Source of the DNA: Polyangiaceae bacterium
Lineage (GTDB): Bacteria > Myxococcota_A > Polyangia > Polyangiales > Polyangiaceae
Direction: 5' to 3'
Assembly (NCBI GenBank): GCA_025937835.1
Contig: JAICQO010000059.1
Span: 1 to 42,068 of the forward strand
DNA: 42,068 nt
Each line of letters begins with the position of its first letter. Positions within the stretch are counted from its first letter, which is position 1. Below the pieces are notes generated by a model. That model worked only from the letters and a program-made list of their open reading frames with translations. It ran no database searches and had not been told where the DNA came from. This document shows, piece by piece, positions 35,262-35,525 of this stretch. A program made the position numbers and the translations under genes.

Positions 35262-35358
35262 GCGCGCCCGGGAAGATTCGGCGCATTAGCTCCGCCCGAC
35301 CGCGACAGCCGCGGAGCGGACAGACTAAAACTTCCCGGGACCGCAACCTCCACACGTT
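35262..35358 (-). repeat. tRNA-derived repeat unit, distal copy
   Basis: 97-bp unit downstream of tRNA-Arg on its strand. Its plus-strand left end (35262-35280) is identical to 35451-35469, which is the last 18 nt of the tRNA plus one flanking base. It also shares GGACAGACTAAA and TTCCCGGGACCGCAACCTCC with the neighbouring unit and ends in a CGCAAC...GTTGCG hairpin (35342-35361). The middle differs between units. Confidence 0.75.
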
Positions 35359-35450
35359 GCGCGCCCGGGAAGATTCGGCGCAGTAGCCGAGAGCTCCGCT
35401 CGAGGCGGACAGACTAAATTTTCCCGGGACCGCAACCTCCAGAGGAGGTT
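35359..35450 (-). repeat. tRNA-derived repeat unit, proximal copy
   Basis: 92-bp unit directly after tRNA-Arg. The left end 35359-35377 repeats the tRNA 3' end. A 10-bp perfect hairpin, CGCAACCTCC-AGA-GGAGGTTGCG (35431-35453), abuts the tRNA and covers its last two bases. CCCGGGAA/TTCCCGGG inverted arms bound the inner part, so each unit can fold as a long hairpin in a tRNA transcript. Confidence 0.75.
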
Positions 35451-35451
35451 G

Positions 35452-35525
35452 CGCGCCCGGGAAGATTCGAACTTCCGACCCCCGGTTCCGTAGACCGGTG
35501 CTCTATCCAGCTGAGCTACGGGCGC
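35452..35525 (-). tRNA. tRNA-Arg (anticodon ACG)
   Basis: 74 nt; acceptor stem GCGCCCG pairs with CGGGCGC, discriminator G. D arm GCTCAGCTGGATAGAGC, anticodon stem CCGGT/ACCGG around loop CTACGGA (anticodon ACG, A34 to be converted to inosine by TadA), T arm GGAAG-TTCGAAT-CTTCC. CCA is not encoded. The last codon region of the lysR gene overlaps its 5' end by 10 bp. Confidence 0.95.

Follow-up and report, generated by a model that had tools for sequence, protein, structure and literature searches.

Tandem units that copy a tRNA 3′ end in a Polyangiaceae bacterium: layout, recurrence, and a possible role as small structured RNAs

What are the short tandem units that follow the tRNA-Arg(ACG) gene of a Polyangiaceae bacterium, each carrying the 3′ end of that same tRNA, and are they made into RNA or did they arise as repeats with no function? 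We addressed this question computationally in the window, by which we mean the whole stretch of 42,068 nucleotides that was analyzed (contig JAICQO010000059.1 of assembly GCA_025937835.1), and in related genomes.

Layout of the array behind tRNA-Arg(ACG)

tRNA-Arg(ACG) is the sole tRNA placed in the window by ARAGORN and Rfam. According to the original prediction, it is followed by two units of 97 and 92 bp in which its own 3′ end is copied, and exact 19-mer matches confirmed this. All parts of the array lie on the minus strand, and a hairpin after the third copy contains the stop codon of a convergent gene; both points are absent from that prediction. The 19-mer, CGAATCTTCCCGGGCGCGC, spans from C56 of the T-loop to the discriminator plus one base, and we refer to it as the core. 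It is present in three exact copies: a unit of 92 bp adjoins the tRNA, a unit of 97 bp follows, and a third core ends the array, with 73 and 78 bp between the cores. The first copy is identical to the tRNA end and its following bases over 22 nt. In the 6.9-Mb draft genome, the 18-mer of the core is found exactly only at these three positions of the array, and the next best matches differ by 2; base composition predicts about 0.001 copies per whole genome by chance.

Each unit is ordered as core, hairpin A, inverted core, linker, hairpin B, and next core. The features of the locus and its two neighbors are as follows.

35451..35525, minus strand: tRNA-Arg, anticodon ACG, CCA not encoded (ARAGORN; Rfam RF00005, 65.9 bits)
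35451..35469, minus strand: core copy 1, at the tRNA 3′ end (exact 19-mer)
35431..35453, minus strand: hairpin A of unit 1, 10 pairs with arms CGCAACCTCC/GGAGGTTGCG and loop TCT; its first bases are the tRNA's last bases (sequence; inverted repeat)
35421..35428, minus strand: inverted core of unit 1, CCCGGGAA, complementary to TTCCCGGG of the tRNA end (duplex analysis)
35405..35420, minus strand: linker of unit 1, AATTTAGTCTGTCCGC, common with the tRNA-Cys unit of the same genome (sequence)
35395..35409, minus strand: hairpin B of unit 1, TCCGC-CTCGA-GCGGA (sequence; predicted fold)
35359..35377, minus strand: core copy 2, exact (19-mer match)
35342..35361, minus strand: hairpin A of unit 2, 6 pairs, CGCAAC/GTTGCG (sequence)
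35332..35339, minus strand: inverted core of unit 2, CCCGGGAA (duplex analysis; predicted fold)
35316..35331, minus strand: linker of unit 2, GTTTTAGTCTGTCCGC (sequence)
35291..35320, minus strand: hairpin B of unit 2, longer than and different from that of unit 1, limits approximate (predicted fold)
35262..35280, minus strand: core copy 3, exact, array end (19-mer match)
35249..35264, minus strand: terminal hairpin A, CGCGAC-CTCA-GTCGCG, containing the stop codon (35255-35257) of the convergent ORF (sequence)
34250..35257, plus strand: neighboring convergent ORF with an outer-membrane beta-barrel domain, not part of the element (Pfam PF13505)
35516..36511, minus strand: neighboring ORF for a LysR-type regulator, upstream of the tRNA and overlapping its 5′ end (Pfam PF00126/PF03466)

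The sequence also bore out the predicted junction hairpins, in which pairing is kept while the loop changes (10-bp and 6-bp versions), and the terminal hairpin A has 6 pairs, one of them compensated (CGCGAC/GTCGCG). The inverted core CCCGGGAA and the linker (AATTTAGTCTGTCCGC in one unit, GTTTTAGTCTGTCCGC in the other) are kept between the two units while the hairpin loops and lengths differ; the original reader had missed both features. Upstream, the LysR-type ORF ends within the tRNA gene (35516-35525), and its TAG stop is the TAG that follows the tRNA's first acceptor strand. The tRNA may therefore be co-transcribed with this ORF.

Known elements and other genomes

The array had been called rtT-like and possibly an independent case. 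The likeness holds for the layout and the predicted fold of E. coli tyrT/tyrV, and it does not extend to homology. RtT (Rfam RF00391, RttR) consists of units in tandem that follow a tRNA and each carry its final 18-20 nt, and the window array is built in the same way. In MG1655, the tyrT/tyrV units run through AATCCTTCCCCCACCACCA copies, inverted GGGGAAGGAT, hairpin, and next copy, an order also seen in the window; in the spacer that separates the two tRNAs, the inverted GGGGAAGGAT has one base changed. At both loci, an inverted complement (CCCGGGAA in both window units) is able to pair with the next copy, a stem between the two is predicted, and a hairpin lies near the next copy. The annotated RttR RNA stops exactly where the copied tRNA end does, at its last base. 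The two differ in unit length (92/97 bp in the window versus 178 in E. coli), in the tRNA (Arg versus Tyr), and in the CCA, which the window tRNA does not encode.

The RF00391 covariance model found no match in the window at E up to 10, so that nothing there reaches the gathering score of the family, and it found none in 39 relatives (0/39, with a positive E. coli control); the E. coli locus itself scored 133-137 bits. It is thus largely supported that the window array is rtT-like by layout and predicted fold, but not an rtT homologue. It is one of many independent or fast-diverging cases, because the arrays found elsewhere are mostly unrelated in sequence. To our knowledge, the rtT units of E. 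coli have no clear role so far. One study reports RtT close to tRNAs in Pasteurellaceae and connects it with the stringent response (PMC4986893). We found no report of rtT relatives outside the gamma-proteobacteria in the papers searched, few of which dealt with rtT.

Among Rfam families, the tRNA was the only convincing match in the window. The proteobacterial small RNA sX4 (RF02223), whose consensus has a tRNA-Ser-like 3′ end, a hairpin, and a GGGGGG that pairs with the C-run of that end, shares the core/hairpin A/inverted-core part with the arrays. Its model gave no match in the window, which is thus not a member of that family; a tRNA-Ser with its unit in another genome (G065) scored 40.7 bits against a family cut-off of 70 bits, and part of that score comes from tRNA-Ser itself. 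The 3′ external transcribed spacers of tRNA operons (leuZ type) are RNAs that come from a tRNA transcript, downstream of the tRNA, and the arrays would resemble them if an RNA is released from this position; we know of no copies of the tRNA end in leuZ-type spacers. In the BIME/REP elements of enterobacteria, direct and inverted palindromic copies alternate as they do here, but BIMEs are dispersed copies of one sequence, whereas each tRNA array copies its own tRNA. A similarity of rtT-like sequences to BIMEs has been reported, and attenuation proposed (PMC2965389).

Conservation in relatives, against which the original prediction was to be checked, was lacking for the exact units and present for the architecture, which recurs widely. 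BLAST with the window units found no unit in the 59 relatives tested (0/59), only tRNA ends and short, probably chance matches. Three genomes of the same genus (G001, G002, G003) have the same tRNA with no array, and another, G007, has its own repeat behind this tRNA, unrelated in sequence to that of the window. A search for the tRNA-Arg end pattern in 108 family genomes yielded further arrays in G064 (3 or more units of 108-113 bp) and in G016 (units at two places, one with an intact tRNA and one with a displaced tRNA half). When named genomes were scanned, arrays also turned up in Luteitalea sp., Acidobacteria SJ725, and ‘bacterium bin.47’; the three further MAGs with units behind Arg tRNAs include at least two Acidobacteria. 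A general pattern, run on 317 genomes of the class Polyangia, turned up arrays, or degenerate units, that follow Ser, Gly, Gln, Cys, and Arg tRNAs. In a census of all 156 tRNAs detected in three genomes, 7 have a copy of their own core within 400 nt downstream, and none has a core copy upstream or a copy of the reversed core.

Most arrays have a unit spacing of 74-113 bp. Units within one array are alike, arrays in different genomes are mostly unrelated in sequence, and each copy corresponds to the local tRNA and none to a foreign one. The copies start at C56 or a few bases from it, a boundary that is partly built into the search patterns; the arrays of the window, G064, G016, and G007 came from searches that left room for longer identity. 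In bin.47 and SJ725, the units look like a clean tandem duplication with short homology.

Several loci are worth describing individually. In a single-contig genome (G027, locus L211), tRNA-Gln is followed by four units of about 93-101 bp and then a fifth, fragmentary one, and G087, of the same genus, has one degenerate copy behind its tRNA-Gln. In G016, the displaced tRNA 3′ half (L159/L174, contig C406) has a full unit and the intact tRNA (L160, contig C180) has its own version; the hairpins of the two differ with pairing kept, and the linker is identical. An integrating element may have carried this unit along with the tRNA half. In the window genome, end copies lie 171 nt downstream of tRNA-Arg(TCT) (G000:C121, L105, around 1630-1650) and 203 nt downstream of tRNA-Ser(GGA) (G000:C100, L096); both are preceded by CGGTG, and the Ser unit repeats at about 250 bp. 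These copies have the same T-loop boundary as the arrays, the Ser-GGA interior has no complementarity to the tRNA end beyond chance, and the two may be a different kind of thing.

The units behind tRNA-Arg and tRNA-Cys of the window genome both carry the linker TTGCGGT...AATTTAG(T/C)CTGT(C/T)CGC, and their inverted cores differ. This linker is found at three places only in that genome, and by sequence it appears to be common to its Arg and Cys units only; the Ser unit of G065 has a partial linker, AATTTAGGCTG. As a marker of units, the linker motif RATTTAGNCTGNNCG was rejected: it gave 36 matches in the 317 class genomes, and none of the 30 fetched loci had a tRNA. A match to the repeat junction in G047 (L010) has no adjoining tRNA and was taken as chance. 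In several relatives, tRNA-Arg(ACG) is followed directly by tadA (L022 of G015, positions 1501-2112; by eye also L019, L023, L027, L035, and L040), and the gene in L022 was identified as the NCBIfam TadA equivalog. TadA is the deaminase that edits A34 of tRNA-Arg(ACG). At the array locus of the window genome, there is no tadA directly behind this tRNA.

The inverted core and the predicted fold

The inverted core is real and specific to its own tRNA. Its complementarity to the tRNA end exceeded that of dinucleotide shuffles over 14 non-E. coli arrays, two of which are related G016 loci (combined P = 3 × 10−7), and was stronger than in the downstream stretches of 231 control tRNAs, some of which look like degenerate arrays themselves (P = 2 × 10−6). 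When each interior was compared with the tRNA ends of 15 arrays, its own tRNA had a mean rank of 1.9 of 15 where 8 is expected (permutation P = 5 × 10−5). Some of these P-values count related units as independent. In the window alone, the signal is modest, with P = 0.06 and 0.04 against shuffles for its two units.

Within-genome comparisons show the specificity directly, among them that of the Arg and Cys units of the window genome, with one linker and different inverted cores. The G016 units behind Arg-ACG and Arg-TCG have 87% mean column identity with GCGCTTCAGGG kept, and several T-stem positions have changed in both core and complement, one pair being broken. In hairpin B of G064, both sides of the stem change between units. 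While the hairpins drift, the complement remains matched to its local tRNA.

For the sequence between successive core ends, folding predicts hairpin A and a long hairpin in which the inverted core faces the next core, with hairpin B at the apex. This two-hairpin fold was predicted for both window units and most others, the degenerate Cys unit being an exception. Pairing between the next core and the interior is part of the fold predicted for most units, and likewise for E. coli rtT. Fold energies were below those of shuffles (mean z = −3.4 over 17 arrays, combined P = 4 × 10−16), and the count of core-interior pairs alone was weakly above them (combined P = 0.006). There is also a strong alternative fold, favored in the window when both cores are offered, in which hairpin A is lengthened by pairing of the complement with the upstream core. 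The minimum free energy structure of the whole window array has this extended hairpin A and a broken tRNA. We would expect it to form only where the tRNA end is unfolded, because the pairing would otherwise break the tRNA.

Function, origin, and significance

The explanation that we prefer, with a probability of roughly 0.55, is that the arrays are small structured RNAs released from the tRNA transcript. The analysis shows the copies and their boundaries, the inverted complement and its tRNA specificity, the predicted fold, and the recurrence; transcription, processing, and action as RNA are the parts that we infer. The tRNA-Arg(ACG) transcript would run on into both units. Each unit would take the form of hairpin A followed by a long hairpin: the complement of the T-stem/acceptor 3′ strand of the tRNA makes up its 5′ strand, the linker and hairpin B sit at its apex, and the copied tRNA end makes up its 3′ strand. 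The units finish exactly as the tRNA does, so tRNA 3′-maturation enzymes could cut at the unit end and set a small RNA free, by analogy with the annotated E. coli RttR.

The main rival is a local repeat with no function, which we consider rather unlikely. Snap-back (template-switch) replication at a hairpin behind the tRNA would have copied the tRNA end inverted, slippage or unequal exchange would have duplicated the unit, and quasi-palindrome correction would keep the stems. Such events would account for copies that only ever come from the local tRNA, for direct and inverted copies that alternate around two hairpin centers, for the clean duplications in bin.47 and SJ725, and for the patchy presence among members of a genus; template switching also makes paired arms change together. 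The patchy occurrence speaks against function, and so do the terminator-like hairpins before the copy: hairpin A of several arrays, including those of G016, resembles an intrinsic terminator with a T-run, and transcription would therefore stop before the core copy. Mutation that perfects palindromes without selection could likewise be the source of the pairing. Function is favored by the fixed single-stranded linkers amid changing hairpins, in the window units and in the G016 trio, and by the same arrangement in E. coli with an annotated RNA that ends at the copy, neither of which a functionless repeat explains; nor does it explain the T-loop start of the direct copy in unrelated arrays, which is partly a search effect.

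The suggestion in the original prediction that the units are tandem attachment-site duplications fits less well. One class of recombinases crosses over in the T-loop, with an attachment site that extends from the T-loop to the tRNA 3′ end, and the core, which runs from C56 to that end, has the same extent. Recombinases of this class might have left tandem copies of the tRNA end, with the units as remains of excised elements or as minimal cassettes moved by an integrase in trans. Att-like duplications do exist at tRNA-Arg in the family, where copies from the anticodon loop to the 3′ end lie 4.6, 9, and 2.4 kb from the tRNA (L155 at 2183/6757, L156 at 1080/10032, and L157 at 2152/4585) and resemble the attachment sites of integrated elements. 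In L157, a Rep ORF2/G2P-like protein is encoded between the copies; the Pfam-scanned ORFs of L155, L157, and the displaced-half locus L174 included no integrase. Those larger duplications, at 2.4-9 kb, start at the anticodon loop (about 42 nt), a boundary different from that of the arrays, and spacings of 74-113 bp are too short for an integrase or an autonomous element. No element or integrase was found between or beside the repeats in the window, where eight ORFs, both neighbors included, were scanned with Pfam. Units that are alike within an array and mostly unrelated between genomes are unlike independently acquired elements, and structured interiors with a tRNA-matched complement are not predicted by this account, which we regard as improbable.

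We find it very improbable that the array is a bidirectional terminator or attenuator, in which the complement and the upstream core would extend hairpin A, ending transcription of both the tRNA and the beta-barrel gene, with the copies as by-products. The extended stem TTCCCGGG-CG-CGCAAC...GTTGCG-GT-CCCGGGAA is nearly continuous in the window, the sequence of hairpin A in G016 makes a good intrinsic terminator, the array end coincides with the stop codon of the convergent gene, and an attenuator role has been proposed for related enterobacterial elements (PMC2965389). However, hairpin A of the window has no following T-run and no terminator-like site was found there, a terminator has no need of exact direct copies of the tRNA end, and a hairpin that extends into the tRNA would compete with tRNA folding.

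If the arrays are indeed released RNAs, they might belong to a general, overlooked class of bacterial RNAs that mimic tRNA ends, each with the 3′ end of its host tRNA and a tailor-made complement, freed by the tRNA maturation enzymes. RtT and perhaps sX4 would then be members noticed by chance, with fast divergence hiding the rest from family models. We put this forward tentatively, as possible though doubtful.

The architecture makes three predictions: each copied tRNA end should be the 3′ end of an RNA, it should pair with the tailor-made complement, and the RNAs should depend on the tRNA 3′-processing enzymes. Should the arrays be silent, they would be a clear case of local palindromic duplication that resembles structured RNA. 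A common plan in unrelated sequences, behind several types of tRNA and in two or more further groups, provides a definable architecture that can be searched for, and what was supposed to be an oddity of E. coli looks like a recurrent kind of element.
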